Of a stretch of DNA of 64,000 nucleotides, positions 27,680 to 58,891 are shown piece by piece. The notes under the pieces were generated by a model, which saw only the letters and a program-made list of their open reading frames with translations, was not told the DNA's origin and made no database searches. The stretch is from assembly GCA_002839605.1 (NCBI GenBank), contig PGYK01000002.1, positions 1-64,000 on the forward strand, read 5' to 3'. The first letter of the stretch is position 1; each line of letters starts with the position of its first letter. Origin of the DNA: Methanomicrobiales archaeon HGW-Methanomicrobiales-3 (GTDB lineage Archaea > Halobacteriota > Methanomicrobia > Methanomicrobiales > Methanospirillaceae). A program made the position numbers and the translations under genes.

Positions 27680-28141
27680 TCACTTTTTCTGGAACTCGGC
27701 GAGGGGGCTTGGTCCGAGTTCACGGACCATGTTGACCACATCGGTCACGACAGCGCCCCACTTTGCGCCTTCGGATGCCGATACGAAGGTCATCCTGAAG
27801 CGGCGGTCGTCAAGACCGATACTCTTCATTAAGCGCTTGACCATGAACATCCGCTTTGCTGCCTTGTAGTTGCCTTCAAGGTAGTGGCAGTCACCAAAGT
27901 GACAGCCGGAGACAAGCACGCCATCGGCGCCGTCAGCGAATGCTTTCAGGACGAAGAGCGAGTCGATACGTCCCGTGCACATGACACGGACAATCCGGAT
28001 GTCGGGCGGGTACTGGATACGACCGCCGCCGGCAAGGTCCGCACCTGCATAGGAACACCAGTTGCAGACGATGCCCTGGATCTTTGGCTGCCAGATGCCG
28101 GGTCCCCTTTCGGGAATTGCGAAGTTACCTGGTGCAGACAT
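27680..28141 (-). CDS. mvhD: F420-non-reducing hydrogenase/heterodisulfide reductase iron-sulfur subunit D
   Basis: A 153-residue MvhD-family protein with a [2Fe-2S]-type cysteine set: CNWCSYAGADLAGGG, MCTGRID and CHFGDCHYLEGN. MvhD passes electrons from a hydrogenase or formate dehydrogenase to HdrA for flavin-based bifurcation. No mvhA/mvhG genes are in the window. Its ATG overlaps the hdrA stop by one base, so HdrA and MvhD are tightly coupled. Confidence 0.93.
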   Translation of the reverse strand: MSAPGNFAIPERGPGIWQPKIQGIVCNWCSYAGADLAGGGRIQYPPDIRIVRVMCTGRIDSLFVLKAFADGADGVLVSGCHFGDCHYLEGNYKAAKRMFMVKRLMKSIGLDDRRFRMTFVSASEGAKWGAVVTDVVNMVRELGPSPLAEFQKK

Positions 28142-30318: not shown

Positions 30319-30328
30319 CTTTACCACC

Positions 30329-31252
30329 TCACAGTACCTTCTGCAGGAACGGCTCACAGCTGATCCCGTGGAGATCAAGCCCGAGGTCCTGCGGACTCAT
30401 TCCCTGTGCCAGACCAAGGAGTTCAGCAAAGTGAAGAACCGGAAGGTTGTACGTTACGCCAAACTTCTCCTGGATCTCAATCTGGCCGCGGTCAAACTGG
30501 AGCTGACAGAACGGACAGATGTCGGTGAGTGCGTCCACCTTCTCTTCCTTAAGGTTGATCAGCTTCTCGTTTGTTATGTCAAGCGCGTGGACGATATCGT
30601 ACCCGCGGACACCGCCACCGGCACCGCAGCACTGCATCTTGTTGCGGTACTCGACCGGAGTTGCGCCAAGGGCTGCAACAAGTTCTTCCATCCAGGTCGG
30701 GCACTCGGTGTTGAGCATGACTTCCTTCTCAAACTCACGGTCTTTGTGGGGCTTGACCAGGTGGCAGCCATAGTGAACGGCAATGCGTGCACCGGTCAGC
30801 GGGTTGGTGACACTGTCGCGGATCTTGTCAACGCCAATGAACTTGTCATTGTACAGGAGCTCTGCGGTGTGGTAGACATTGATAGTACCCTTGTACTCCA
30901 TGTCAACTTCCTTGAGCACTTCGTTGACTGCATCGCGGAGATCCTTGTTGTGCTTGAGTTTGTGGTTGACTTCCCAGATCGACTTGTAGCAACCATTGCA
31001 GACAAGAGCGATATCCATCTTCATCTGTTCTGCAAGAACGAGGTTTCTCGCTGCCATTGCATAGAAGACGTTGAGGTCGATCGAACCGAATGCACCGGGT
31101 GCGGGGCAGCAGCTGGCTCCCTTTAAGGGGACGAGCTCAACGCCGAGTTTCTTCATCGCCTTGATGGAGGCGGATTCGACACCGGGGTATCGGTTGGGGG
31201 CAATGCATCCAAGATAGAATGCGAACTTGTGGTTTGCGCCTGCTTCTGACAT
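30329..31252 (-). CDS. hdrB: CoB-CoM heterodisulfide reductase subunit B
   Basis: A 307-residue catalytic subunit with two CCG domains: CCPAPGAFG with CNGCYKS, and CCGAGGGVRGYD with CPFCQLQFDRG. These hold the two unusual [4Fe-4S] clusters that cleave the heterodisulfide. It starts MSEAGANHKFAFYLGCIAPN. It lies 3 bp after hdrC and 10 bp before hdrA. Confidence 0.97.
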   Translation of the reverse strand: MSEAGANHKFAFYLGCIAPNRYPGVESASIKAMKKLGVELVPLKGASCCPAPGAFGSIDLNVFYAMAARNLVLAEQMKMDIALVCNGCYKSIWEVNHKLKHNKDLRDAVNEVLKEVDMEYKGTINVYHTAELLYNDKFIGVDKIRDSVTNPLTGARIAVHYGCHLVKPHKDREFEKEVMLNTECPTWMEELVAALGATPVEYRNKMQCCGAGGGVRGYDIVHALDITNEKLINLKEEKVDALTDICPFCQLQFDRGQIEIQEKFGVTYNLPVLHFAELLGLAQGMSPQDLGLDLHGISCEPFLQKVL

Positions 31253-43956: not shown

Positions 43957-44052
43957 AAACCTTTTAGGTTTTTCATCGCCCGGGTGCAAACCCTTCCGGT
44001 TTCATGCGTTTTTGAGAGTTAAGAGCAATTCCCCCTCCGCAATTTTATATAG
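43957..44052 (+). promoter_or_regulatory. Paired inverted repeats and promoter before the large kinase gene
   Basis: Two similar dyads, AAACCTTTTAGGTTT (43957-43971) and AAACCCTTCCGGTTT (43988-44002), start 31 bp apart and are each followed by TTCAT or TCAT. The TATA box TTTTATATAGG lies at about 44042-44052, 42 bp before the kinase ATG. The dyads are placed to act as operators, perhaps for the adjacent winged-helix regulator. Confidence 0.55.
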
Positions 44053-44094
44053 GATAACCATAGCATCAGGATATTACAGGATTGGAACGCCCCG

Positions 44095-47000
44095 ATGGTC
44101 TCTGTGCTCTACGTGGATGATGAACGCGATCTTCTCGAAATCTGCAAGATCTTTTTAGAGCAATCGCCGGAATTCAGCGTAAAAACCGCGGCATCGGGTG
44201 AGGAAGCACTCGAGTTGCTCTCAACCCATCCATTCGATGCGATAATTTCAGATTACCAGATGCCGGGAATGGACGGTATCGCGTTGTTGAAAACCGTCCG
44301 CACGCAGTACGGGGATATCCCGTTTATTCTCTTCACCGGGCGGGGCCGGGAAGAGATCGTGATCGAGGCAATCAACAACGGTGCCGACTTTTATCTCCAG
44401 AAAGGCGGCGATGTCAAAGCCCAGTTTGCCGAACTTGCCCACAAGATCCGGCAGGCCACCGCCCGGAGGCAGGCTGAGATCTCGCTTATCGAATCCGAGA
44501 AACGTCTTGCCGAAATCATCGACTTCCTTCCCGATGCAACCTTTGCCATTAACCGTGACGGCATCATCATTGCATGGAACCGGGCAATCGAAGAGATGAC
44601 CGGGCTTTCCGCGGAAGCGATGCTCGGCAAAGGGGATCACGAGTATGCTCTCCCGTTCTATGGTAAGCGCAGGCCGATCCTCATCGACCTGATCTTCTCT
44701 CCTGAACGTGAAGTGGAACCCTATTACTCCAACATTTTGAGAGCAGGGGCCACGATCACTGCCGAGACCAATCTTCCGCACCCGCGGGGGAACCAGATAA
44801 CGGTCCTTGCCAAGGCAGGTCCGCTGTACAACCGGCAGGGTGAACTGGCAGGAGCGATCGAGGCTATCCGCGACATTACCGAACGCAAGAAAGCCGATGA
44901 TGAACTCCGTGCCGCCTACGAGCAGATCACGGCTTCTGAAGAGGAGCTCCGCGAACAGTACGATGCCCTGAGCATTACTGAGCAGCAGGTACGGGATAAT
45001 GCATCCCGGCTTGAATATATGCTCGGCTTCTTTGAGCGGGCAAATACCCACGAGAAGGATCTTCTGAATTATGCTGTCGAGGGGGCCGGCATCGTAACGG
45101 GCAGCCCGCTCGGCTATCTTGCATTCCTCAACGAAGACGAGTCCGAACTGGCCATGTATGCATGGTCCCGGTCAGCGATGACCGAATGTTCCCTCCGTGA
45201 GAAACCCGTTGTCTATAAAACAGCAGAGACCGGTCTCTGGGGGGAGGCGGTCCGGCAGAGGCGTCCTGTTATCACGAATGATTATGCTGCTCCAAATCCC
45301 CAAAAAAAGGGGTATCCTGTTGGTCATCCCGTCATCGTACGGCACATGAATATCCCGGTCATCGATAACGGGCGCATTGTCCTGGTTGCGGGAGTGGCAA
45401 ACAAACCCCATGATTACACGGACGATGATGTCAGCCAGTTATCGCTTCTCATGCAGGGACTCTGGCAGGTTATCCGGCAGAAAAAAACCCAGAATGATCT
45501 TCTGGAGAGCGAGGAAAAGTACCGTACAATAATTGAAAACATCCAGGATGTCTATTACCGCAGCGATACGGAAGGTAACCTGATCATGGCAAGCCCGAGC
45601 ATCCTCCCGCTTCTCGGGTATGAGTCGCTCGATGAGCTTCTCGGGAAGAATATCGGCAGGGACGTCTGGGCATTTCCTGAGCGCCGGCAGGCGTTCCTGG
45701 ACATCATACAAAGAGAAGGGGAAGTGAAAGATTTTGAGGTATCCCTTCGTCGCAGGGATGGAGATCTTGTCCTCGTCTCTACCAGCAGTCACTTTTACAC
45801 CAATAACGATGGAGAGCCGGGTGGTGTTGAAGGAATTTTCCATGATATCACCGCGATCCGGAAAGCCGATCAGCAGATACAGCTCCTTGCCGGGCTCATG
45901 GAACTCTCCCCGGCATCAATCACGGTTCATTCGGATGATGGCAGGTTCCTGTATGCAAACCAGCGGACATTCGAGCTCCACGGGTATACGCGGGATGAGT
46001 TCCTGGCGCTCAACCTCCACGAGCTGGATGTACCGTCAAGCGAGGAACATATCCGTGAGCGGATCGATACGCTCAGACGGACCGGCGAGGCGTCTTTTGA
46101 CGTAGAGCATTATAAAAAAGACGGATCCCGGATCCCGCTTCACGTGGCAATCCGTCTTATCCGCTGGGATTCCCATGATGCAATCCTGAGTGTTGCAACC
46201 GATCTTTCCGAGCGGAAAAAAGCCGGGCAGGCCCTCCGTGATATGGAACGGCTGTACCGGATTATCGTTAACAACAGCCATGATATCATCTACACACTCA
46301 GGCCGGATGGCACCCTTACGTTCATCTCCCCGAGCTGGACTGCCGGTCTCGGCCATGAACCCGGAGAGGTCCTGGGGAAAAGTTTCCGAATATTTGTTCA
46401 CGCGGATGATATCCCTTCCTGTGAGGATTTTCTGGCACGGACACTCTCCTCCTGCAAGGTCCAGCCGGCCATTGAATTACGGGTAATCCATAAAGATGCA
46501 ACAATCCGCTGGTACCGGACAACCCTGATGCCGGTCATTGATGACCATGGTGCAATCACTACGCTTGTTGGCAATGCCCTCGACTTTACCGACTACCGGC
46601 TTGCTGAAGAAGCACTCCGAACAAGCGAGGCACAGTATCGCAGTGTCATTGAGAACATCCAGGACGCGCTAATCCGGTCTGACAAAAAAGGAAATCTCAT
46701 CATGGCAAGCCCCTCCACCGCAATCCTGTTCGGGTATGATGAACCCGAAGAGATACTGGGAAGGCCGATTAATTCCTTTTACCAGCACCCGGAGATCCGG
46801 CCCGGTTTGATCGAGAAGATGGAGAGGGAGAAGGAACTCGTTGACCAGACAATTGAGTTCCGGAGAAAGGACGGTTCCACGTTCCAGGGCTCGGTTAATG
46901 CACATTTTGTTTACAATGCCGAGGGGGAGCCGGATGGAGTTGAATGCTCGATTCATGATGTTACGGGATATCTGGCAATGGAACAGGCGATCCGGGAAGC

Positions 47001-47640
47001 AAACCGGAAACTCAGCCTCTTAAACAGCATCACCCGGCACGATGTTGTCAACCAGCTGACGATCCTGCAGGGCTTTGCCCAGATTGCCTCCCTGAAGAAA
47101 GGGGATCCGGTTATTGAAGATTACATGAAAAAGATCCTTGCTGCTGCTGACACCATCAGCCGCCAGATCGAGTTCACCCGGACCTACCAGGACCTGGGCG
47201 TGCAGGCCCCCACGTGGATTCCGGTTGAGACGGTCATCGATCACGTGACAAGCCAGGTACCGATCCGGTTCTCCAAGACCTGTGCCGGCATCGAGATCTT
47301 CTCTGATCCGATGCTGGAGCGGGTCTTTTACAACCTTGTTGACAATGCGGGCCGGCACGGGGGAAGAGTGACGGAGATCACCGTCCGCTGCGAGCGTGAG
47401 CCGGATGGCCTTCTGCTCATTGTTGAAGATAACGGGATCGGCATCCCTCTCGCGGAGAAAGAGAAGATCTTTATCCGCGGGTATGGGAAAAATACAGGAC
47501 TTGGTCTCTTTCTGGCACGGGAGATCCTCTCGATTACCGGCATACGTATCAGGGAGTCCGGTATCGAGGGCCGGGGAGCTCGTTTTGAGATGCTCGTGCC
47601 AAAGAACGCGTTCCGCATCACTGATGCAAAAGACCGGTGA
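44095..47640 (+). CDS. Hybrid multi-PAS/GAF histidine kinase with N-terminal receiver
   Basis: 1181 residues, soluble. The receiver domain covers 1-120 (acidic D8-D9, phospho-acceptor D53, K103). After it come a PAS domain about 130-260, a coiled coil 262-300, a GAF domain about 305-460 and four more PAS domains (about 475-590, 598-715, 720-850, 855-970). The kinase core has phospho-acceptor His982 in SITRHDVVNQL, and the HATPase has LVDNAGRHGG, EDNGIGIP and NTGLGLFLAREIL. The combination suggests a cytoplasmic sensor that itself receives phosphate. Its input is unknown. Confidence 0.9.
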   Translation: MVSVLYVDDERDLLEICKIFLEQSPEFSVKTAASGEEALELLSTHPFDAIISDYQMPGMDGIALLKTVRTQYGDIPFILFTGRGREEIVIEAINNGADFYLQKGGDVKAQFAELAHKIRQATARRQAEISLIESEKRLAEIIDFLPDATFAINRDGIIIAWNRAIEEMTGLSAEAMLGKGDHEYALPFYGKRRPILIDLIFSPEREVEPYYSNILRAGATITAETNLPHPRGNQITVLAKAGPLYNRQGELAGAIEAIRDITERKKADDELRAAYEQITASEEELREQYDALSITEQQVRDNASRLEYMLGFFERANTHEKDLLNYAVEGAGIVTGSPLGYLAFLNEDESELAMYAWSRSAMTECSLREKPVVYKTAETGLWGEAVRQRRPVITNDYAAPNPQKKGYPVGHPVIVRHMNIPVIDNGRIVLVAGVANKPHDYTDDDVSQLSLLMQGLWQVIRQKKTQNDLLESEEKYRTIIENIQDVYYRSDTEGNLIMASPSILPLLGYESLDELLGKNIGRDVWAFPERRQAFLDIIQREGEVKDFEVSLRRRDGDLVLVSTSSHFYTNNDGEPGGVEGIFHDITAIRKADQQIQLLAGLMELSPASITVHSDDGRFLYANQRTFELHGYTRDEFLALNLHELDVPSSEEHIRERIDTLRRTGEASFDVEHYKKDGSRIPLHVAIRLIRWDSHDAILSVATDLSERKKAGQALRDMERLYRIIVNNSHDIIYTLRPDGTLTFISPSWTAGLGHEPGEVLGKSFRIFVHADDIPSCEDFLARTLSSCKVQPAIELRVIHKDATIRWYRTTLMPVIDDHGAITTLVGNALDFTDYRLAEEALRTSEAQYRSVIENIQDALIRSDKKGNLIMASPSTAILFGYDEPEEILGRPINSFYQHPEIRPGLIEKMEREKELVDQTIEFRRKDGSTFQGSVNAHFVYNAEGEPDGVECSIHDVTGYLAMEQAIREANRKLSLLNSITRHDVVNQLTILQGFAQIASLKKGDPVIEDYMKKILAAADTISRQIEFTRTYQDLGVQAPTWIPVETVIDHVTSQVPIRFSKTCAGIEIFSDPMLERVFYNLVDNAGRHGGRVTEITVRCEREPDGLLLIVEDNGIGIPLAEKEKIFIRGYGKNTGLGLFLAREILSITGIRIRESGIEGRGARFEMLVPKNAFRITDAKDR

Positions 47641-47642
47641 AA

Positions 47643-47662
47643 CCCCCCTTTATGGAGGGGGA
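47643..47662 (+). terminator. GC-rich hairpin after the kinase gene
   Basis: CCCCCCTTTATGGAGGGGG immediately follows the stop codon, with arms CCCCC and GGGGG. No clear T tract follows, so it may be a processing or stabilising hairpin rather than a terminator. Confidence 0.4.
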
Positions 47663-47793
47663 GTAATGCTGCTGACTGGTACTCTGCACTCCTGCCCATC
47701 CGGATCATACCCGTTGGGTGCGATGATAAACCTTGAAATATGAATAACAGGCATTCACTGTCATACAGTCAGTGTTCAACTGGGGGAGATGTC

Positions 47794-48942
47794 ATGAGCA
47801 GTGCTTTTACCGACCTGAGGAAGTTTGTTGCCCCGGAGTTCGTCATCGGGGCGGATGCCCGGCTGCTTGCCGGACGGTACGCGAAGAACTTTGGCGCCGA
47901 GCAGGTCTTCATCGCAACCGGGCCAAAGATCATCAGCGCCGGGTGGGTGAAAGACGTAACAGAACACCTTGATGCCGAAGGGATCGGGCACACACTCTTT
48001 TCCGCAATCAACCCCAATCCCCGGGATTATGAGGTGATGGAGGGTGCACGGGTGTACGAGGAGTCCGGATGCGATGCGATCCTTGCAATCGGCGGCGGCA
48101 GCCCGATTGACTGTGCCAAGGGGATCGGGATCGTGGTCTCCAATAAGAAACCGGTCCTTGAATTTGAAGGGGTGGACAATGTTGTTGTCCCCCCGCCCCC
48201 GATGATCTGTATCCCGACAACGGCCGGCACCGGCGCTGATGTGTCGCAGTTCGCCATCATCAACGATACCACAAGAAAGGTGAAGATTGCCATCATCAGC
48301 AAGATGATCGTACCAGATATCGCGCTCGTTGATCCGGTACCCTTAACCACGCTCTCCCCCGAGCTTACGGCTCACACCGGCATGGACGCCATCACCCACA
48401 GCGTGGAGGCCTATGTCTCGAATGCCAGTTCACCGGTGACCGATATCCAGGCGCTGGAATCCATCCGGCTGATGAAAGGTCACCTGCTTGCAGCGTACCG
48501 CGACCCGGGGTCGGTTGAAGAACGGTACCAGACAATGCTCGGGAGCCTCCTTGCCGGGCTCGCCTTCTCGAATGCAAGCCTCGGTGCGGTCCATGCGCTG
48601 GCTCACAGCCTTGGGGGATACTCCGACCTCCCGCACGGAGAGTGCAACGCGCTCCTGCTGGAGCATGTCATTGATTTCAATTACGACGCCTGCCCGGAAC
48701 GCTATGCTGCCGTTGGCGCAGCACTGGGTGTGGCCCCGCAGGAAGGAAAGCAGGGGGTAATTCTTGCCATACGCACCCTCCGCGAGGCGCTGGGCATCAC
48801 GACCCGGCTTTCGGAACTGGGTGTATCAAAGGCAGATTTGCATGAACTTGCAGGAAAAGCGATCTATGATCCCTGCCTTGCAACCAACCCGAAGAAGACC
48901 ACGGTAGCGGATCTTGAGACCATCTATGAACGAGCATTCTGA
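47794..48942 (+). CDS. Iron-containing (type III) alcohol dehydrogenase
   Basis: 382 residues starting MSSAFTDLRKFVAPEFVIGA, with GGGGGAGAT upstream. It has the NAD-binding AILAIGGGSPIDCAKGIGI and IPTTAGTGADVSQFAII. Metal ligands are expected in DAITHSVEAYVS, GAVHALAHSLGGYSDLPHGE and CNALLLEH. It would interconvert an alcohol and aldehyde with NAD(P)H. Its stop overlaps the next kinase gene by 17 bp, an unusual pairing of a dehydrogenase with a sensor. Confidence 0.88.
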   Translation: MSSAFTDLRKFVAPEFVIGADARLLAGRYAKNFGAEQVFIATGPKIISAGWVKDVTEHLDAEGIGHTLFSAINPNPRDYEVMEGARVYEESGCDAILAIGGGSPIDCAKGIGIVVSNKKPVLEFEGVDNVVVPPPPMICIPTTAGTGADVSQFAIINDTTRKVKIAIISKMIVPDIALVDPVPLTTLSPELTAHTGMDAITHSVEAYVSNASSPVTDIQALESIRLMKGHLLAAYRDPGSVEERYQTMLGSLLAGLAFSNASLGAVHALAHSLGGYSDLPHGECNALLLEHVIDFNYDACPERYAAVGAALGVAPQEGKQGVILAIRTLREALGITTRLSELGVSKADLHELAGKAIYDPCLATNPKKTTVADLETIYERAF

Positions 48943-50932
48943 CGACACTCCTGACTGGGAATCCCAGCGGAACCGGATCATCGGTCTTGGCGAGACTTCT
49001 ATCCGCAAGAGTTACTACCCCGAGCTCCAGCAGCGCATTCATGAACTGGAGAAGAAGAACCAGGAGCTCCGGGCAGCATATGAAGAGATGACGGCAACCG
49101 ATGAGGAGCTGCGCCACCAGATTGAGGAGATCGCAAAAAAGGAGCAGGAACTCCGGGCGAGCCAACAACGGTTCCATTCTCTCTATGCCAACATGATAGA
49201 CGGTGCTGCCATTCACGAACTGAAGATTGACCAAAACGGCATCCCGGAGGATTACATCATCACCGAGATTAATCCCGCGTTCGAGAAACACCTGGGCATC
49301 TCACGGGAACGGGCTGTCGGGAAAACGAGCCGGGAAGTGTATGGCGTAGAAAGCCCCCCCTTCCTTGCGACCTATGCACGGGTTGTCCAAACCGGCAAGC
49401 CGGAAGTCTTTGAAACCTACTTCCCTCCCCTTGGTAAGTATTTCCAGATCGCTGTCTATTGTCCGGCCACGGGAACCTTTGCAACGATCTTTGAAGATAT
49501 CACGGAGCGGAAACTCGCAGAAGAGACGCTGCGTGAAAGCGAGGAGTTCCTCTCAGGCATTGTTGAGAATATCCCGCTGATGATCTTTGTCAAGGATGCC
49601 AAAGATCTCCGTTTTGTCCGGTTCAACCGGGCTGGTGAGGAACTTCTCGGGTACTCCCGCGAGGAACTCCTTGGGAAGAATGATTATGATTTTTTCCCAA
49701 AGGATCAGGCGGATTTCTTTTCAGAAAAAGACCGGGCGGTCCTTACAGGGAAGGTCCGTATCGATATTCCCGAAGAACCGATCGTGACCCGTATTCTTGG
49801 TGAGCGGACCCTGCATACCCGGAAGATCCCGGTTCTTGACAGCAATGGCGAACCCCGTTTCCTGCTGGGAATTTCTGAAGATATCACGGAACAGAAAGAA
49901 GCTGAAGCGAGTCTCCGCGACAGCGAGGAGCGGTACCGGAGCCTGGTCGATATTACGGATACCGGGTACCTGGTGCTGGACAACCGGGGTCTCGTGATCG
50001 ATGCCAATGAGGTGTACCTGCGGCTCATCGGGAGGGCATCGCTTGCCGAAATTCTCGGCCACCCGGTCACTGAATGGACTGCCACTCACGATAGTGAGCG
50101 CAATGCCCGCGAGGTGGAAAAATGCTTAAAGACCGGGCATGTCCGCGGCCTTGAAGTGGATTACCTGAGGCCCGACGGGAGCCTTCAGCCCGTTGAGATC
50201 AATGCCACCGTGTTTCATGCGGCAGGCGGCGATATTGTCCTCACGCTCTGCCGCGATATCTCGGACCGCAAGCGGACGAACACCGCTCTGCAGCAGGCAC
50301 GGAACAAGCTGGCACTCCTCAATGCGGTCACGTTCCAGGATATCCAGACCGCGGCCTTTTCGCTTGCTGCCTACCAGGAGCTGGTGAAAGCCGCTGTGAC
50401 AGACCAGAAAGCCCGGTCCTATATCGAAAAGCAGGAAGTGTTCTTAAAAAAGATGGTCGATACCCTGGACTTTGCCAAGAATTACCAGGAGATGGGGATT
50501 CACCCGCCCCGCTGGCAGAATGTCCGGCAGGTCTTCCTGTTCGCTATCTCGCATCTGGATTTTCTGCACATGAAACAGAACTTACATCTCGCAAATCTCG
50601 AGATCTTTGCCGATCCGCTCTTTGAAAAGGCCCTTTTCAATATCATGCAGAATGTGCTCGAACACGGGGCCCGGGCAACGGAAGTGACGCTTCACTTTGT
50701 CAAACATCCCGAGAGCCTCGTGCTGATTATCGAGGATAATGGTGTCGGGATCCCGCCAGAAGAGAAGAACATGATCTTTGATCGCGGCTACGGGAAAGGA
50801 TCGGGTCTCGGTCTCTTCCTGGTCCGGGAGGTTCTCTCGATCACCGGCATGAGTATCCGGGAGGCTGGTAGTGGCGGGCAGGGGACGCGGTTTGAGATCA
50901 CGGTGCCAAAAGGGGGATTCAGGAACCCGTAA
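48926..50932 (+). CDS. PAS-domain sensor protein with histidine kinase ATPase but no phospho-acceptor His
   Basis: 668 residues. The coiled coil (about 35-85) is followed by three PAS domains (about 85-200, 205-330, 335-455), an H-box-like region and an HATPase (about 555-665). The region aligned with SITRHDVVNQL of the 44095-47640 kinase reads AVTFQDIQTAAF. Gln471 replaces the His. The ATP site is intact (NIMQNVLEHG, EDNGVGIPPEEK, GSGLGLFLVREVL). The two proteins share a similar C-terminal half, so this one is a diverged paralogue. Confidence 0.87.
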   Translation: MNEHSDDTPDWESQRNRIIGLGETSIRKSYYPELQQRIHELEKKNQELRAAYEEMTATDEELRHQIEEIAKKEQELRASQQRFHSLYANMIDGAAIHELKIDQNGIPEDYIITEINPAFEKHLGISRERAVGKTSREVYGVESPPFLATYARVVQTGKPEVFETYFPPLGKYFQIAVYCPATGTFATIFEDITERKLAEETLRESEEFLSGIVENIPLMIFVKDAKDLRFVRFNRAGEELLGYSREELLGKNDYDFFPKDQADFFSEKDRAVLTGKVRIDIPEEPIVTRILGERTLHTRKIPVLDSNGEPRFLLGISEDITEQKEAEASLRDSEERYRSLVDITDTGYLVLDNRGLVIDANEVYLRLIGRASLAEILGHPVTEWTATHDSERNAREVEKCLKTGHVRGLEVDYLRPDGSLQPVEINATVFHAAGGDIVLTLCRDISDRKRTNTALQQARNKLALLNAVTFQDIQTAAFSLAAYQELVKAAVTDQKARSYIEKQEVFLKKMVDTLDFAKNYQEMGIHPPRWQNVRQVFLFAISHLDFLHMKQNLHLANLEIFADPLFEKALFNIMQNVLEHGARATEVTLHFVKHPESLVLIIEDNGVGIPPEEKNMIFDRGYGKGSGLGLFLVREVLSITGMSIREAGSGGQGTRFEITVPKGGFRNP

Positions 50933-50984
50933 ACCCCGCGGATCGCAAACAGGATATTATACCCCCGGCGAGTTACTTTTAGGT

Positions 50985-52109
50985 ATGAAACATTCGCTTC
51001 CGGGTTGCAGCCGGTATCTCCCTGCGGTTGTTCTCCTGCTGCTGCTCATCCCCTGCGCCTCTGCCTTTACAGTCTCGCCGGTCACTATCACCCCCTCGGG
51101 GGTTCTGAACCCGAATGATCCGGTCGAAGTCTCCTGCACGGTGTATGCGGCATCCGGTGTTGCATTCCCGTCCTATGATGATCTCCAGTTTGTCACAGAA
51201 CTCGACGACCCGGTCTGGTATTACACGGTCGTGGTCAATGGCGTGGAGAATGTCCGGCCTTCTGAACGGGGAAAGATCTTAACCATCAGCGGGTTTGAAC
51301 TCAACTACCTGAACAAAGACGAAGTCATTGTTAAGATGGTCTTGAAAGCTCATGTCCCGGCCACCGCGGCACCCGGGGCCAACAAGATGATGATGAAGAT
51401 CCAGGAGCTGGATGCGCGGAGCAATGTCCTTCCCTACTCGGTTGTTCAGGTGGATCACCTGATCGGCCTGCCAACCCCGACTCCTACCCCGGCATATGGC
51501 AGTATTGCGGTCACCTCCGATCCCTCCGGGGCGGGTGTGTACCTTGACAATGCCATCAAGGGCATAACCCCGGTCACGCTTGATAATGTCCAAAACGGGC
51601 AGCATACGGTTCTCCTGCGGCACGAAGGGTACCAGGATTTTTCAAGCCAGGTCACGGTCATGGGCGATCTCCAGTACATCAGTACCGTGCTTAACCGGCA
51701 TGCTGTGACAACGGTGACAACCAGTTCTGCGGGATCCACAACCACAACGGCACCCGGGACGACAGCAACGGCAACGCCATGGTCACCGCAACCTACTGCC
51801 ATCCCGACAACCGGGATCCTTTCCATCACCACCGCCCCTTCCGGGGCCCTCGTGTATATTGATGACCAGATGAAAGGAATAACCCCGGCAGTGATTCCTG
51901 GGTTATCCCCGGGCAGCCACAAAGTCCTCCTGATCCTGGACGGGTACGAGGATTTTAAAACAACAATCGAGATAACCCCCGGGACCACGTCAGAATTTGT
52001 GACCGGGCTCTCCCAGCGGAAGACATTGCCCGGGTTTAGCATTGTTGTGGCACTTCTGGCAATCGGGCTGACAGCCGGGCTGCTGCACCGGCGGATACGG
52101 AAGGAATAA
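50985..52109 (+). CDS. Secreted PEGA-domain protein with PGF-type C-terminal anchor
   Basis: 374 residues starting MKHSLPGCSRYLPAVVLLLL. A signal peptide (about 1-28) is followed by an Ig-like N-terminal part. Next come two PEGA repeats (SIAVTSDPSGAGVYLDN...GYQDF and LSITTAPSGALVYIDDQ...GYEDF) separated by a Thr/Ser/Pro linker. The tail LPGFSIVVALLAIGLTAGLL followed by RRIRK resembles a PGF-CTERM archaeosortase signal. It is probably exposed on the cell surface. TATA-like ATATTATAC lies about 30 bp upstream. Confidence 0.8.
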   Translation: MKHSLPGCSRYLPAVVLLLLLIPCASAFTVSPVTITPSGVLNPNDPVEVSCTVYAASGVAFPSYDDLQFVTELDDPVWYYTVVVNGVENVRPSERGKILTISGFELNYLNKDEVIVKMVLKAHVPATAAPGANKMMMKIQELDARSNVLPYSVVQVDHLIGLPTPTPTPAYGSIAVTSDPSGAGVYLDNAIKGITPVTLDNVQNGQHTVLLRHEGYQDFSSQVTVMGDLQYISTVLNRHAVTTVTTSSAGSTTTTAPGTTATATPWSPQPTAIPTTGILSITTAPSGALVYIDDQMKGITPAVIPGLSPGSHKVLLILDGYEDFKTTIEITPGTTSEFVTGLSQRKTLPGFSIVVALLAIGLTAGLLHRRIRKE

Positions 52110-52296
52110 TCCCCAACCCCCCTCATGCTTTTACCCGGTATCCGGTTTTTCCGGCACGGTATGCGCTGAAAATATTTCGCTATGGTGATGGTCTGAAAAA
52201 ACCTTCGTGTGGCACTCTTCAGGAAGGATCTTCTTTGCCATCCCGGTGCTTTATATTGCCACAACACCGACCTCATATCCGAAACTGCGTGGTATC

Positions 52297-52599
52297 ATGA
52301 CAGAAAAAACAGGACATTTCGAGAAAGGCGTCTGGGTGGAAGAACCCGCAGTACCGGAAAAGAATCCTGAAACGAAGATCGATCCAATCGATCTTCGTCT
52401 CGCTGCGGCAACGCGCCAGGTTCTCACTGCTTTAGACGATCTTGCTACGGCAACGCATGACCTGGTGACCACGGAAGAAGGAAAAAAACATATCGAAAAG
52501 ACCGTGAAAGACACAACAACCCAGGTCCAGAAGTCCTTTGATGAGATTCTCGCCCGGGCGAAAGTCGGGATGGACAAAGTGGTCGAGCCGAAAAAATAA
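52297..52599 (+). CDS. Small MTEK-GHFEKGVWVE family protein
   Basis: A 100-residue protein starting MTEKTGHFEKGVWVEEP. The first 17 residues are nearly identical to those of the protein at 53247-54089, and the rest aligns too (IDLRLAAATRQVLTALDDLA, ATHDLVTTEEGKKHIEKTVK, QVQKSFDEILARAKVGMDK). It is hydrophilic, helical and without membrane segments. No function is known. The motif looks like a conserved tag or binding site. An upstream in-frame extension contains no family sequence. Confidence 0.7.
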   Translation: MTEKTGHFEKGVWVEEPAVPEKNPETKIDPIDLRLAAATRQVLTALDDLATATHDLVTTEEGKKHIEKTVKDTTTQVQKSFDEILARAKVGMDKVVEPKK

Positions 52600-52659
52600 G
52601 TGCAGTGATCCATCACCCCTCCCCAGGTATTCTTTTTCTGGTGATTTTTTCATAAAAAA

Positions 52660-53045
52660 ACCGGGATCCGGTTTTTCAATGAAAACCGGTTCGCGATTTT
52701 TCCGGATTGATTGTTGATCGCGATCATGATCGCGATTGGATCTGTAAAATCGCGATCCGATAACGAAATGAAAAACGCTGATCGATTTTACGATCAAAAT
52801 CGCGTATCGAATTCCACAAAAAAATCGGGATCCGATTTTACGTTCCGTCAGTAATCGCGGTCAAAAAAGCGTTTTCCAATCGCTGCCCGATTTTGATCTG
52901 AAAATCGCTGATCGATTTTGCGATCAAGATCGCGATCCGATTCTGAAATGAAAATCGGTTCGCGATTATTTTGGATTTGTTTTTGATCGCGATCATGATC
53001 GCGATTGCAGTTTCAAAATCGGGATCCGGTTGCACATGATCCTGG
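52660..53045. repeat. Second GATCGCGAT/GGATCCGAT palindrome array
   Basis: About 385 bp between the two paralogous genes, made of A/T tracts and palindromic cores: GATCGCGATCATGATCGCGA twice (about 52716 and 52985), ATCGGGATCCGATTTT, ATCGCGATCCGAT, GCTGATCGATTTTGCGATC and TCGGTTCGCGATT. The units are imperfect and irregular. The cores match those at 21825-22190. It has no coding potential and no CRISPR-like spacing. Confidence 0.7.
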
Positions 53046-53246
53046 TTTGAAAACAATCCTCTTCCGGCTGCGGTGAGAAAATCCGGCAGGCAGGGGGAGA
53101 TAAACAGATTTGGATGAACCGCAGATGACGTGATGTTCCGGTGGTAAAAAGGTCAAATCCCCCGCTACGGTGCCTGGAACATATTCCATGTCAGTATTTT
53201 AATTATAAGAAAGAACGATCTCAATAATCAGGAATGCGTGATATCC

Positions 53247-54089
53247 ATGACCGAAAAACCAGGACACTTTGAGAAAGGAGTCTGGGTTGAGGACCTTCCT
53301 CCCCAGGTGACCCCCCAGCCAGACACAGATGCCATTGACCGGCGGCTTTCCGATGTTTCGAAGACGGTCAAATCATCGATCGACACGGTGATGACCGCCA
53401 CCCACAATCTCGTGGCCACCCCTGAAGGGAAACAGTACATTGAAACAACCATAAAAGAAGCACAGAAGCAGGTTCAGCACTCCTTCGATGCGCTTCTCAC
53501 CCGGGCAAAATCGGAACTGGATAAAACAAAGGCCGAGATTGAGAGAACCCGGGCGGAGCTGGATAAAAAAGTGGCCGAACTGGATAAATCTGCACTCGAA
53601 CCGGGAAAAATCAGGGCCGAACTGGACAGAAAAGTAGCCGAACTGAATGAAAAAGTGACTGCGCTGAATCGTGAAAAAACCAAACCCGAAAAGGCCGTTA
53701 CACCTCCGGCCAAATCCCCCTCAGCCTCAATAAAAACCAAATCCCAATCCGCAAAAGCAAAAACAACCAGGGCAAAAACCAAAACTCCCCCGGCTAAACC
53801 CAAAGCACAACCGGCAAAAACCAAATCAGCACCTGCAACGAAGACAACTCCTGCGAAGACAAAGGAGCCGGTAAAAGCGAAAACCCCCGAGGCTAAACCC
53901 AAAGCGCAACCGGTAAAAACCAAAACAGCACCCGCAAAGAAGACAACTCCTGCGAAGACAAAGGAGCCGGCAAAAGCGAAAAAGGCACCGGCCAAAGCAA
54001 AGGCCGCTTTGGCGAAATCAAAAACTCCGGCCGTTACAACTCCCAAAACAAAACCCAAAGCCAAACCCGGAAAAAAAGGGAAACGATAA
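53247..54089 (+). CDS. Histone H1-like Lys/Ala/Pro-rich protein with conserved N-terminal domain
   Basis: 280 residues. Residues 1-90 (MTEKPGHFEKGVWVEDL, RRLSDVSKTVKSSIDTVMTA, VQHSFDALLTRAKSEL) are the same family as the 100-residue neighbour. Residues 90-145 are a coiled coil of ELDK/AELD heptads. The last 135 residues are Lys/Ala/Pro/Thr repeats of the AKTKTPPAKPKAQPAK type, with two long near-identical copies around TTPAKTKEPVKAKTP and TTPAKTKEPAKAK. Such tails bind DNA or RNA without specificity, as in H1 or AlgP. GTGAT precedes the ATG. Confidence 0.78.
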   Translation: MTEKPGHFEKGVWVEDLPPQVTPQPDTDAIDRRLSDVSKTVKSSIDTVMTATHNLVATPEGKQYIETTIKEAQKQVQHSFDALLTRAKSELDKTKAEIERTRAELDKKVAELDKSALEPGKIRAELDRKVAELNEKVTALNREKTKPEKAVTPPAKSPSASIKTKSQSAKAKTTRAKTKTPPAKPKAQPAKTKSAPATKTTPAKTKEPVKAKTPEAKPKAQPVKTKTAPAKKTTPAKTKEPAKAKKAPAKAKAALAKSKTPAVTTPKTKPKAKPGKKGKR

Positions 54090-54090
54090 C

Positions 54091-54111
54091 ACCCCCTCTT
54101 TTTGCGGGGGA
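54091..54111 (+). terminator. Hairpin with internal T run after the H1-like gene
   Basis: CACCCCCTCTTTTTGCGGGGG directly follows the stop, with arms CCCCC and GGGGG around a T-rich loop. It is likely a transcript end or 3'-stabilising element, similar in type to the hairpin at 47643. Confidence 0.45.
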
Positions 54112-54166
54112 CATGCTGACCCGCACAAGGTACTGAACAACCCTGTTTTTTTACAAACTCTGCTGC

Positions 54167-54532
54167 TTACTCCCGTATCATTGTCAGCGTCATCCTGAAC
54201 CGCTGTTTTGCCTGAACAGCGTGAGGGATGTTCGCGGGCAGGATTATCATCCCGCCGGTTTTTACCGTTTGGGGCACGCCTGCAATCGACACTTCAGCTT
54301 CCCCGTCCGTCACATTCAGGATGGCATCGAACGGCGCAGAGTGCTCGGAGAGTCCTTCCCCTGCATCGAATGCAAACAGGGTGATGGTGCCGGTCTTTTT
54401 GAAGACGATCATCCGGCTTGCCACCGTCCCGTCCTGGTACTGGACGAGATCGTTCACCGTCAACACTTTCCCGATAAGTTCTTCGCGCTTCCTGTCAGCA
54501 GCAGATTTTTCTTCTGTTCCTGTATCTGTCAT
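54167..54532 (-). CDS. Cupin-domain protein
   Basis: A 121-residue protein with a single cupin fold. Motif 1 is around GEGLSEHSAPFDAILNVTDG and motif 2 is KTGGMIILPANIPHAVQAKQ, giving His/Glu-like metal ligands. It resembles small cupins annotated as ethanolamine- or stress-linked sensors in anaerobes. The function is unknown. The polar N terminus (MTDTGTEEKSAADRKREEL) is acidic and basic. It ends facing the H1-like gene and starts 81 bp from the transporter gene stop. Confidence 0.8.
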   Translation of the reverse strand: MTDTGTEEKSAADRKREELIGKVLTVNDLVQYQDGTVASRMIVFKKTGTITLFAFDAGEGLSEHSAPFDAILNVTDGEAEVSIAGVPQTVKTGGMIILPANIPHAVQAKQRFRMTLTMIRE

Positions 54533-54613
54533 AGGTTCCCTGTGTGATGAGTACGTGCGAAGGGGATAATATGCATATCCCTGTTCCGGGCCCCCTCTCC
54601 GTGTGGGGCGGTA

Positions 54614-55795
54614 TCAGAGTACAAGGGCCAGCCATGCCCAGTAAATCCCAAGCTGAATAATTGTCAGCGGCACCCCGGCCCGGGCAAATTCAAGGAACGT
54701 GAGGGTCTCGCCCTCCTTCTCCGCATTCTGGATGATGATGACATTGCTTGCCGCCCCGAGGATTGTCAGGTTGCCGGCTACCGTGCTGCCGGCTGCAAGG
54801 GCAGTGAGCTGTGCAGTTGTACCCCCGGCCTGCATAATGAGGGGTAAAAAGAGGGCAACGAACGGTACGTTCGAGATAAACTGGCTGACAATGACCGCAA
54901 GGCAGAGGATGGCCGGGACGGCTGTTACGCTGCCGGTGTCAATCAATGACTGGAAGAACCCGGAGTCCCAGACGCTCTGCATGAGGACAAACATGGCAGC
55001 AAAGAAGACGAGTGTCGGCCAGTCGATTGCGCGGAGCAGGTCAAACCTCTCTTTTGCAAGGAGGATCACGGGGGCAGCAGCGCAGAGTGCAATCAGCGGG
55101 AGCGAGAGGGAGATCTCCGTTCCGGTCAGGGATGCGAGGATCTTTCCTGCTGAGAGGATGAGGATGATCGCAAGCGAACATTTCGCTAATGTGGCGAGAT
55201 GGTTGTCAAAGGAGGGTGCCGGATCGACGGTTATTGTCGTGACAGCAGAGAATTCCCTGCCATAGAAAAAGCGCAGTACCAGGAAGGCTGCGCAGAGGCT
55301 GATGATGGTGGGGATGAACAGGTAAACCCCGAACGTGACAAACGGTGAAGACATCCCTGCGTCCACAGCCACGAGCAGGTTCTGGGGGTTTCCAATCGGG
55401 CTCATCACGCTGCCGGTTGTTATCGCAAACGCGAGCGCGAGGAGGAGGAGTTTTGGCTGGATGTGGTGCCGGGCGGCAAGCCCGAGCACCAGGGGCGTTC
55501 CGATGATGGCAATGGTATCATTCATCAGCAGCGCCGAGAGGAATCCCCCGCAAAAGAGGAGGGCAATGACCACCTGCTGACCGTTTTTACACCGGGAGAA
55601 AAACCGGTTGGCAATGACTGCAAGGTACCCGCTCCTGACCAGCGCTTCTCCGACAACAAACATGCCAAAGAGGAAGATCATCACGTCCAGATTGATTGCC
55701 CGGAGAGCAGCTGACGGCGTGATCTGGCCGGTCACCAGGACCGCCAGTGCTCCCCCGAGCATGATCTGCCAGATCCTGAGCCGGAACCTGCCCAC
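54614..55795 (-). CDS. SLC13/ArsB-NhaD superfamily transporter with unresolved N terminus
   Basis: 393 residues and about ten helices, with the superfamily motifs DVMIFLFGMFVVGEALVRSG, MNDTIAIIGTPLVLGLAAR, TTGSVMSPIGNPQNLLV and VSQFISNVPFVALFLPL. It is an anion, organic acid or Na+/H+ carrier in the membrane. The first usable start is GTG 55795. However, the frame upstream to 55862 reads QPAIIILAAVFLLIAIRQ, the first helix that family members normally have. No ATG, GTG or TTG precedes that part before the in-frame stop at 55865-55867. The gene may use a rare start or carry a 5' lesion. Confidence 0.75.
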   Translation of the reverse strand: MGRFRLRIWQIMLGGALAVLVTGQITPSAALRAINLDVMIFLFGMFVVGEALVRSGYLAVIANRFFSRCKNGQQVVIALLFCGGFLSALLMNDTIAIIGTPLVLGLAARHHIQPKLLLLALAFAITTGSVMSPIGNPQNLLVAVDAGMSSPFVTFGVYLFIPTIISLCAAFLVLRFFYGREFSAVTTITVDPAPSFDNHLATLAKCSLAIILILSAGKILASLTGTEISLSLPLIALCAAAPVILLAKERFDLLRAIDWPTLVFFAAMFVLMQSVWDSGFFQSLIDTGSVTAVPAILCLAVIVSQFISNVPFVALFLPLIMQAGGTTAQLTALAAGSTVAGNLTILGAASNVIIIQNAEKEGETLTFLEFARAGVPLTIIQLGIYWAWLALVL

Positions 55796-55957
55796 CTGGC
55801 GGATTGCGATGAGCAGGAAAACGGCGGCGAGTATGATGATTGCGGGTTGCGTACAAGAGTGGTACTATGTAGCGGGAGATGAGTTTTGGGGTACCCGTCC
55901 GCGTTCCCGGTATACGCTGCCAGAAATGGTCTGGACCCAAAGTCTAAAAAAACCGGA

Positions 55958-56638
55958 TTATTGGTTATTGACAACCCAGTGCAGGAGAATCCCGCGTTCC
56001 ATCTGTTTTGCTTCAAGAAGGGTAAGCCGGGAAAAATCCTCCTCTCTTGTGAACCCGGGTCCGTCGGCAAGGGTCGGAGCATCCCTGCCCCCGATAATGA
56101 TGTTGCCGATGAAGGTATAGATCTCGTCAACGAGACCGGCAGCCAGGAGGCCGGCGATGATGGTGCCCCCGCCCTCCACCATCACACGCTGGATGCCCAT
56201 GGTGCCGAGTTCTTCCATCAGTAGTGCGAGATCCACCTCCCCCTCACCGGCAACAATCACGGTAGCGTGTTCTTTCAGGTTTTCAACCCGTTGTGAATCA
56301 GCCCGGGCTGAAACCGCAACAATCCGCTTCCCCTCACCCTTATGGAGGATAGAAGCATCCGATGGGATGCGGGCAGTACTGTCGATCACGATCCGGACCG
56401 GGTGCTCGTTCTCTCCCCGGTCCCGCCGCAACTTACGGCACTCGTCAGCCTTGACGGTCAATGATGGATCGTCGGCAAGTACCGTGCCGATGCCGACCAT
56501 CACCGCATCGCAGCCGGCCTTGAGCCGGTCAACCCGGGCAAAATCAGATTGCCCTGAGATCTTAACCTGCCGACGCTCGCGGGTTGAGAGCTTACCATCT
56601 GCGCTCATGGCAACATTGACCACAACATACGGTCGCAT
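55958..56638 (-). CDS. 2,5-diamino-6-ribosylamino-4(3H)-pyrimidinone 5'-phosphate reductase
   Basis: A 226-residue archaeal RibD-C-type reductase starting MRPYVVVNVAMSADGKLSTR. It has DAVMVGIGTVLADDPSLTVK, RIVIDSTARIPSDASIL and RVMVEGGGTIIAGLLAAGLV, which form the NADPH and substrate sites. It reduces the ribosylaminopyrimidine to the ribitylamino form on the path to riboflavin and, in methanogens, to the Fo chromophore of F420. The deaminase domain of bacterial RibD is absent, as is normal in archaea. Confidence 0.9.
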   Translation of the reverse strand: MRPYVVVNVAMSADGKLSTRERRQVKISGQSDFARVDRLKAGCDAVMVGIGTVLADDPSLTVKADECRKLRRDRGENEHPVRIVIDSTARIPSDASILHKGEGKRIVAVSARADSQRVENLKEHATVIVAGEGEVDLALLMEELGTMGIQRVMVEGGGTIIAGLLAAGLVDEIYTFIGNIIIGGRDAPTLADGPGFTREEDFSRLTLLEAKQMERGILLHWVVNNQ

Positions 56639-56745
56639 AGCGGTACCGTGTTAGATCCGGATGATTATGAACCCACTGATTTTATTGGTATGGGGTCAAT
56701 CCGAGGGCATCTTAAAATAACAGGAACGCCAATGGCGAAGATAGT

Positions 56746-58536
56746 ATGGGTGAACGGGTCTTCCCGTTCGGAGGGCATTCGTTCTCCGAAACGGATCTGG
56801 TGCGGGGTTTTGTCATCTTCTCCCTGACGATCTGCTGTATCCTGATATCCGCCCTCGCCTTCTCGCGCCAGATCCCCTACATCAACTACCAGCTCTTCTT
56901 TATTCCCATCGTCTATGCCGCGTATTTTTATCCCAAACGGGGGATCTATGTTGCGGCAATCTCCGGGGTCGTGTACCAGGGAATCGGGTATTTTTACAGT
57001 TACCCGAATCCCGCGGCCATGCTCGGTGTAACCGCAGAAGCGCTCCTCTTTGTCATCACGGCAATCATCATTGCTTATTTCATCGAGAGAATCCGGAGCG
57101 GCGAAGCCCGGTACCGCACGGTTTTTGAGCACTCGCAGCTGGGAATTATTCTCTTTAACCGCGAAGGTTTCGCAATCCGGCAGACCAATGAGAAGTTCGC
57201 CGCCATGTTGAACTACTCAACGCAGGAGATTCTTGCCTCCACATTTTTGGATCTTTTCTTCATCGAACGGGAGAAAGAGCGTTTTCTTGAACGGATTGAC
57301 AAGAACCGGGAGACCGCAGATTTCGAGACCCGGTTTGCTTCCGCCGGAGGAGCTGCCTGCTGGGTGAACCTCTCATGGTGCATGATTGACGAGCACACGG
57401 TCAGTTGTACCGCAGTCAACATCAATGCCCGAAAGCTTGCCGAGAAACTCAATAATGACAACATGATGAAGTACCGGCAGCTGACCGAGAACTCCCCGAC
57501 CAGCATCCTCATCGTGCAGAACGGGATCATCCTGTATGCAAATCCCACCTTTGCAGAATTCTCCGGGTATCCTCCAGCCGAAGTGATCGGCAGGGAACTG
57601 GTCCGGTTCCTTGACCCCCGTGACCTGCACGTATTCTCCGAGTTTGTACAGCAATGGACGATCAAAAAACCCTTAGCCGCCCATGCCGAGTTCCGGTTTG
57701 TGAACAAAGATGAAGGTATCCGGGTTGCCGTCCTCTTTACCAACCCAATCGTCCATGCCAACAAACCGGCAACCATGATAAACCTCATGGATATCTCTGA
57801 AAAGCTCAGGCTTGAAGAGAAGATCCACCAGGACAACGAGCGGCGACGGGGGATCATTATCACCGTTGCACACGAGCTCCGCACTCCTCTCCAGCCCATC
57901 CTCGGGTACCTCAACCTGCTCATCTCTGACCCGGAGGGATTCGGGATTGTGGATGAGACAAAAAAGATCCTCGAACGCTGCCTGCTCAGCGTGGACCGGG
58001 AGCGGCAGATCATCAACCAGATGCTGGAACTCTCCGTCCTCGAAAGCGGAAAACTTCATTTGAGCCTGTCAGAATTCCCGCTTGAAGCGCTCGTTCAGAC
58101 CGTGCTCGATACCAGCGGGTATCACTCCAAGGCGGAAGTCAGCGTAACGATGCCGGAAGGTATTGTGATCATGGCTGACCGCGACCGGCTCTATAATGTT
58201 GTTGATTCGCTCCTCTCCAATGCGATTAACTACTCCAAGCCCCCGCGGAAGATCGAGATTAGCTACCGCATGGATACCGATGACGGATTCCATCACATCG
58301 CGTTCAGTGACAACGGGATTGGAATCCCTCCCGAGTCCATCGGCACCATCTTCGAACCGTTCCAGCTGGCCGATGCAGCAAAACTGTCCCGGAAGTATGA
58401 CCGTATCGGGCTCTCCCTCTCGATTGCCAGGAAAGTGGTGCAGATGCATGGCGGGGATATCACGGTCAGGAGTGTTGTCAACACCGGGAGCACGTTCACC
58501 ATCCACCTGCCAAAGGAGGTAACCGTTGATGCATAA
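56746..58536 (+). CDS. Membrane-bound PAS histidine kinase
   Basis: 596 residues. About four N-terminal helices (20-115) are followed by PAS about 120-235 and PAS about 240-350. HisKA has His376 in VAHELRTPLQPILGYLNL, and HATPase_c follows (SLLSNAINYSKP, DNGIGIPPESIG, RIGLSLSIARKVV). It is a complete orthodox kinase. TATA-like TTAAAATAAC about 28 bp upstream suggests a nearly leaderless mRNA. The response regulator gene overlaps its 3' end, so the two form a two-component pair. Confidence 0.92.
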   Translation: MGERVFPFGGHSFSETDLVRGFVIFSLTICCILISALAFSRQIPYINYQLFFIPIVYAAYFYPKRGIYVAAISGVVYQGIGYFYSYPNPAAMLGVTAEALLFVITAIIIAYFIERIRSGEARYRTVFEHSQLGIILFNREGFAIRQTNEKFAAMLNYSTQEILASTFLDLFFIEREKERFLERIDKNRETADFETRFASAGGAACWVNLSWCMIDEHTVSCTAVNINARKLAEKLNNDNMMKYRQLTENSPTSILIVQNGIILYANPTFAEFSGYPPAEVIGRELVRFLDPRDLHVFSEFVQQWTIKKPLAAHAEFRFVNKDEGIRVAVLFTNPIVHANKPATMINLMDISEKLRLEEKIHQDNERRRGIIITVAHELRTPLQPILGYLNLLISDPEGFGIVDETKKILERCLLSVDRERQIINQMLELSVLESGKLHLSLSEFPLEALVQTVLDTSGYHSKAEVSVTMPEGIVIMADRDRLYNVVDSLLSNAINYSKPPRKIEISYRMDTDDGFHHIAFSDNGIGIPPESIGTIFEPFQLADAAKLSRKYDRIGLSLSIARKVVQMHGGDITVRSVVNTGSTFTIHLPKEVTVDA

Positions 58537-58891
58537 GATCATGCTTGTGGAGGATGACCTGCAGATCCTGGAGATGATGGAGATCCTCCTCCAGAAGATC
58601 GGGTATGAACCGGTCCTTGTTCCCAATGTACTGGATGCGCTGGATCTGGTCAGGACCAATCCTCCGGATCTCGTGCTTCTCGATATCATGATGACTCCCA
58701 TCAACGGGTGGGAGTTTTTAGAGAAAGTGCGGGAGGAGTACCGTATCCACAATCTTCCCATCCTCCTCTTCACCGCATCGCCGGATGTTGCTGAGAAGGC
58801 AGCGATGCTCCGCGATCCCCACCTTGGCATTCTCCAGAAACCCGTCTCGCTCCCGGAACTCAAAGCCGGGCTTGAACGGTTCTTAAAATAA
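58529..58891 (+). CDS. Single-domain response regulator
   Basis: 120 residues, receiver only. D9-D10 is in MLVEDDLQI, phospho-acceptor Asp52 is in LVLLDIMMTP, Thr is in LLFTASPD, and Lys is in GILQKPVSLPEL. There is no output domain, so it must act by protein contact or as a phosphate relay. AAAGGAGGTAACC lies inside the end of the kinase gene and the ATG overlaps it by 8 bp. The kinase at 56746-58536 is the obvious partner. Confidence 0.93.
   Translation: MHKIMLVEDDLQILEMMEILLQKIGYEPVLVPNVLDALDLVRTNPPDLVLLDIMMTPINGWEFLEKVREEYRIHNLPILLFTASPDVAEKAAMLRDPHLGILQKPVSLPELKAGLERFLK

Follow-up and report, generated by a model that had tools for sequence, protein, structure and literature searches.

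What use a methanogen might have for a protein that ends in a long lysine-rich tail, like that of the linker histone H1, is the question raised by P0001, a 280-amino acid protein encoded in the stretch of DNA analysed here (64,000 nucleotides, hereafter the window). A sequence-only reading of this locus had proposed a nucleoid or RNA-binding protein, modulated by a short paralogue encoded just upstream. Our analysis adds that the N-terminal end of the protein recurs on unrelated viral proteins.

Architecture of P0001

P0001 is encoded in a genome of 2.59 Mb (G000) whose genus is shared with a genome matching Methanoregula sp. UBA154, and the coordinates and start of its reading frame were verified. 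The GTGAT element ahead of the start is complementary to the 3' end of archaeal 16S rRNA, and the V-I-S/T reading (VIS/VIT) seen upstream of many orthologues is this same element. The parts of the gene are as follows:

53238..53242, plus strand: Shine-Dalgarno-like GTGAT, with a 4-nt spacer to the P0001 ATG; also present before many orthologues
53247..54089, plus strand: whole coding sequence of the tail-bearing P0001; tailed orthologues at L005 in G046 (236 aa) and L011 in G036 (312 aa)
53247..53306, plus strand: N-terminal tag, residues 1-20, with invariant residues; core GHFEKGVWVED, a predicted beta-hairpin (residues 6-15); also found on unrelated viral proteins
53328..53528, plus strand: amphipathic two-helix hairpin, residues ~28-57 and ~59-94 (AlphaFold, helical periodicity)
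53529..53678, plus strand: coiled-coil extension, residues ~95-144, with xELDKKxAELDK repeats
53688..54086, plus strand: disordered Lys/Ala/Thr/Pro-rich tail, residues 148-280 (composition, AlphaFold)
53771..53883, plus strand: tail repeat copy 1, 113 nt, 89% identical to copy 2
53870..53982, plus strand: tail repeat copy 2, 113 nt, at a 99-nt offset from copy 1

AlphaFold was run on the family alignments, both for full P0001 and for the domain alone, and because the pTM was low (0.26-0.33) only secondary structure was taken from the models. In P0001 these predict two strands (residues 6-9 and 12-15) paired as a beta-hairpin and three helices (27-57, 59-116 and 119-144), while the remainder is disordered, with a pLDDT of about 46-61 and no secondary structure in the tail. 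In the family alignment the helices of the domain are amphipathic, their helical periodicity being significant, which fits the expectation for a pairing helical hairpin, and the two-helix hairpin is likely the oligomerisation unit of the protein. What had been read as a single 90-residue domain is conserved as claimed, but it really consists of an N-terminal hairpin of ~15 residues, a variable linker and the two-helix hairpin. The coiled coil that had been read after it agrees with the helices predicted to residue 144 and with the xELDKKxAELDK repeats, and this extension is confined to the tail-bearing clade. A 196-aa reading frame lying antisense to the tail (53474-54064, minus strand) is an artefact of the K/A/T/P codon composition.

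A protein family confined to Methanomicrobiales

Using a profile built from 53 members, the domain was detected in 151 of the 232 genomes of the order (104 of the 135 good ones), so that the N-terminal motif, which the sequence-only reading had suggested looking for in other Methanomicrobiales, is indeed widespread. Within the taxonomic family it is present in 69 of 108 genomes (66 with a single-sequence query), and in a phylum-wide sample of 393 genomes all 63 matches fell within the same order. As judged from these sequence searches, the domain of P0001 is an unnamed, Methanomicrobiales-only family of small proteins, the typical member of which is ~100 aa long, single copy and tail-less. P0001 and its short relative P0002 both match the family profile (A1) at E ~1e-36, and P0001 has the features of the family, namely the N-terminal GHFxxGxWV hairpin and the two-helix hairpin with its TxEG turn. 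Four residues are invariant (G6, G11, W13 and G61) and six are near-invariant (F8, V14, R33, L55, T58 and E60). G6, F8, G11 and W13 lie within the N-terminal hairpin, whereas G61 lies at the helix turn, which is conserved as L55-x-x-T58-x-E60-G61.

The domain matches no family over cut-off in Pfam and NCBIfam, and searches of the PDB by sequence and by fold returned only de novo or chance helical matches. Across these three resources P0001 has no detectable homology to granule-protein or DNA-binding families. These searches gave no link between the N-terminal domain and DNA, and all but three members of the family are tail-less. No conserved operon partner of the family gene was found, its neighbours being conserved at the genus level only. 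A protein of ~95 aa with a YCTICGGIPPD motif, for which there is no Pfam match, adjoins the family gene in seven loci (L003:5434-5880, L054, L055, L056, L060, L064 and L068); these represent six genomes, since L003 and L056 are apparently the same contig.

Origin of the lysine-rich tail

The tail of 133 residues contains 39 Lys, 28 Ala, 21 Thr and 21 Pro (29, 21, 16 and 16%, respectively) and carries a net charge of +37, against +36 for P0001 as a whole. No other 133-residue stretch in the 150 open frames of that length in the window is as basic. Its motifs are PAK, AKxK and TK-rich segments, and KPAA repeats are absent. The two near-identical internal copies noticed earlier are confirmed, and their 89% identity over 113 nt at an offset of 99 nt indicates a tandem duplication (99 nt) within the tail.

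Coil and tail together were found in three genomes only (G000, G046 and G036), that is, in 3 of the 69 domain-bearing genomes of the taxonomic family, so the tail described for P0001 has counterparts in two further genomes. The three tailed proteins form one clade in the family tree (support 98/83). Their nearest relative, the UBA154 protein, has no tail, and the coil already starts in its C-terminus, ELDKTKAELDKKVKR. On the sequences compared, the tail was gained once, in one branch of the genus. The net charge after residue 150 is +37, +27 and +34 in the three diverged orthologues, and their tails are not alike in the details of their sequence. Retention of charge and composition while the sequences differ is as expected of a selected disordered region.

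Segments of similar composition occur elsewhere. An HdrA-like protein of the window (28141-30378, with Fer4 and FAD domains) has an N-terminal extension of ~60 residues rich in Lys, Ala, Pro and Thr. The small terminase subunit of a virus found in the genus (L159), a DNA-packaging protein by family, has a K/A/P-rich N-terminus. As HdrA is a metabolic enzyme, composition alone is no evidence of a chromatin function.

The short relative P0002 and the intergenic repeat

Two further features lie upstream of P0001:

52297..52599, plus strand: P0002, tail-less family member, 100 aa, pI 5.6; its orthologue in G066 lies directly before the repeat
52620..53060, no strand assigned: multicopy, palindrome-rich intergenic repeat between P0002 and P0001 (genome matches)

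P0002 is the short tail-less paralogue described earlier, and is 52% identical to P0001 over 94 aa. The two proteins fall in different clades of the family tree. The left flank (44036-53195), P0002 included, is 87-88% identical to G066, whereas the right flank (53200-58880) shows synteny to the loci of G046, G036 and UBA154. A recent tandem duplication as the source of the pair is ruled out by tree and synteny, and the pair is not conserved either, being found only in G000 and perhaps also in G066, whose contig stops just before the position of P0001. Because the pair is not conserved, the idea that P0002 is a dedicated modulator of P0001 is weakened, and we consider it unlikely.

The intergenic repeat includes the palindromes AAAATCGSGATCCGATTTT and GATCGCGATCATGATCGCGATC. 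It has 22 matches in G000 and up to 37 in relatives, with copies of up to ~380 bp at 70-84% identity, and it is missing from many genomes of the genus. Nothing in Rfam scored over the gathering score for this repeat, and it is not required for the protein model of P0001.

The N-terminal tag recurs on unrelated viral proteins

Conservation in the family is highest in the predicted beta-hairpin at its N-terminus, with the consensus GHFExGxWV. The host tag peptide is MTEKPGHFEKGVWVEDLP and an example from a virus is MSGHFEKGVWVEDPP. When a profile of the first 18-19 residues was run across the phylum, it retrieved mainly family members within the order, together with extra proteins in two genomes of the same taxonomic family. 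These two tagged non-family proteins sit in Methanoregulaceae proviruses. In G070 the tagged protein is 95 aa long, the provirus status being based on a terminase identified by PHROGs, and in G084 the tag VAGHFENGVWIEDPP is located on a Mu-F-like head morphogenesis protein. At L159 (G070:C1:401000-420000), the provirus of this Methanoregula-like archaeon has genes for terminase subunits and for a protein resembling a sliding clamp, and two of its reading frames bear the tag.

Scanning viral contigs for GHF(E/D)xGxWV, with the start codon left out of the pattern, yielded 11 stretches, compared with 0 matches for a scrambled motif of the same composition. In 7 of the 11 the match begins one or two codons past the ATG of a small protein, and one virus has a second tagged protein in which the tag is placed further in. 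The other four stretches (L164, L166, L170 and L174) were discarded because the match is antisense to one viral gene. After further scans with the ATG in the pattern, convincing tags were counted on 15 contigs in all; matches at L200/L204/L218, L211, L213, L222, L228 and L229 were judged spurious. The bodies of the tagged proteins from the 15 viral contigs fall into at least 10 unrelated groups by blastp. One contig (IMGVR_UViG_3300027419_000024, L235:9006-10459) has four successive small tagged reading frames with otherwise different bodies, each preceded by a Shine-Dalgarno-like sequence, and the variants of the tag are MGHFKNGKYI, MIGKFEKGRWV, MTGKFVKGKWV and MGHFKKGKWI. Hosts of the tagged viral contigs are known only for the two proviruses.

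Between host and viral genes the codons of the tag vary freely at synonymous sites, which indicates that selection acts on the peptide and rules out an RNA-level element at this position. A tblastn search of named phage records with the tag gave no match, the query being too short to exclude its presence. The tag is missing from Methanoculleus virus Blf4, a cultured virus and the one sequenced Methanoculleus virus examined. Two different Blf4 proteins (L236:16069 and L236:19186) have the N-terminus MMHLQWHGAN in common, with only synonymous differences there; here, too, a virus of the order has re-used a start peptide. Among the papers searched, we found no mention of the GHFExGxWV motif in a relevant context.

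The presence of the same N-terminus on unrelated viral proteins, some from viruses infecting these archaea, suggests a shared docking tag. It is possible, though we put the chance at somewhat below even, that GHFExGxW(V/I) serves Methanomicrobiales, and head-tailed viruses as well, as a portable N-terminal docking tag recognised by a conserved partner in the host. The host would place the tag on the order-wide helical family, to which one branch would have added an H1-like tail that bridges the partner to nucleic acid or polyphosphate, and the viruses would tag many unrelated small proteins and a Mu-F-like head protein in order to reach, or compete for, the same partner.

Comparison with known tailed proteins

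PhaF of Pseudomonas (PF05597, TIGR01837) has been described as combining an amphipathic helix with a leucine zipper and with a tail that a model places around DNA; it has a short companion, PhaI (PMC3574117). P0001 resembles PhaF in its amphipathic helical N-terminal part, predicted coiled-coil oligomerisation and Lys/Ala/Pro tail, and P0002 parallels PhaI as a shorter relative that lacks a tail and is encoded by the same genome (PMC3574117). However, the description of PhaF includes no N-terminal hairpin tag, and phasin membership of P0001 was rejected, as it scored 13.1 against 28.8 bits for PF05597 and 14.3 against 94.7 for TIGR01837, and no PHA synthase was found. Class III PHA synthase (TIGR01836) was over cut-off in 0 of the 108 genomes, a count to be read with the fact that the control set also gave none and that other classes are possible. 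Across 53 family members the phasin profile matched only four at E<=0.05.

AlgP of P. aeruginosa has a helical N-terminus of 124 aa followed by a KPAA tail, a net charge of +55, and has been reported to bind DNA and to space polyphosphate granules (PMC9239181). P0001 is similar to it in having a helical N-terminus of ~120 aa, a long disordered K/P/A tail and a strongly positive charge (+36 against +55). The KPAA repeats are present only in AlgP, and the likeness is one of layout. P0001 thus has the helical N-terminus and K/A/P tail of the AlgP/PhaF-type layout, with oligomerisation at the level of prediction only. Given the same order of parts and no detectable homology, P0001 may work like these proteins, and we do not claim membership of their families.

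Eukaryotic linker histone H1 has a comparable basic, disordered, Lys/Ala/Pro-rich C-terminal tail, but its winged-helix globular domain is not present in P0001, for which no such Pfam match was obtained up to E = 1 and a hairpin with helices is predicted instead. Mycobacterial HupB and tailed archaeal histones resemble P0001 in that one lineage has acquired a disordered basic tail (PMC10919886). However, P0001 lacks an HU or histone fold (Pfam including PF00808). Homology of P0001 to histones, MC1 or H1 was rejected, as no match was found.

A possible tether and its alternatives

We propose a combined model in which P0001 is an oligomeric tether or adaptor, a reading to which we give about an even chance while leaving the ligand open. 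Helices and coil would make the protein oligomeric, and the hairpin tag, which is also carried by viral proteins, would dock a hypothetical conserved host partner. The polycationic tail would be a polyanion binder with no preference for sequence; nucleic acid is its most likely ligand and polyphosphate a possible one. P0001 would in this way hold the partner of the tag on the nucleoid (or on RNA or polyphosphate), as PhaF and AlgP tether granules. In favour of this model are the architecture with its disordered tail, the restriction of the family to one order, the single tailed clade, the tags on viral proteins, the layout of PhaF and AlgP, the polyphosphate genes of G000 (PPK1, Ppx and CHAD) and the K/A/P-rich segment of a viral terminase; against it stand the lack of homology to DNA-binding or granule families, the extension on HdrA, the rarity of the tail and the independence of the domain from PPK1. 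Of the earlier nucleoid or RNA-binding proposal, the tail survives as a plausible non-specific polyanion binder in an AlgP/PhaF-like layout, but we found no tie between the N-terminal domain and DNA.

A plain nucleoid-compacting protein of the H1, HupB or AlgP kind, in which the tail neutralises and condenses DNA and the domain only oligomerises, would account for the composition and charge of the tail. Lysine-rich tails are reported to be easily gained by archaeal and bacterial nucleoid proteins (PMC10919886), and MC1 is missing from G000 and from all 39 genomes of the genus searched. However, G000 has two histones, encoded away from P0001, and conservation in the family peaks at the tag it shares with viral proteins and not at anything linked with DNA; tail-less members are moreover the rule. 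We regard this reading as unlikely. That the tail is a low-complexity expansion of the coiled-coil C-terminus, acting as a solubility element or spacer with no nucleic-acid role, would agree with the internal tandem duplication, the divergence of its sequence across the three genomes and the similar extension on HdrA, but the preservation of composition and positive charge in the three orthologues speaks against it, and we consider it improbable.

Polyphosphate offers a further possibility, in which P0001 is an archaeal counterpart of AlgP, of the same layout, with a tail that binds to both polyphosphate and DNA and sets the spacing of granules. In Methanospirillum, which belongs to the same order, polyphosphate bodies have been reported (PMC4704411), and G000 has one PPK1, which is clustered with a CHAD protein (with an HD-like C-terminal part) and Ppx/GppA as a polyphosphate module (L127, G000:C3). 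In UBA154 and G036, genes for a Pst transporter and a PhoU-like protein are located at a distance of a few kb from the orthologue; however, they do not form one operon with it, and none were found beside P0001 in the window. PPK1 is present in each of the three tail genomes, but this is the case for 95 of the 108 overall. Co-occurrence of PPK1 with the domain was rejected, the domain being present in 61 of 95 genomes with PPK1 and in 8 of 13 without (Fisher p = 1, 108 genomes). We consider this reading, too, to be unlikely.

Implications

Linker histones have been reported not to be found in archaea (PMC6136690). One archaeal lineage seems to have independently built a design of helical domain, coil and Lys/Ala/Pro tail that is known from bacterial granule tethers, here on an order-specific domain. 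More unusual is that the conserved N-terminus of this domain is common to otherwise unrelated viral proteins. The portable tag surprises more than the tail does; it is new here and was no part of the original finding. Should it serve for docking, it would point to a conserved host factor exploited by viruses, which could be found by pull-down with an 18-residue peptide, and it would give a handle on the function of unannotated small viral proteins.
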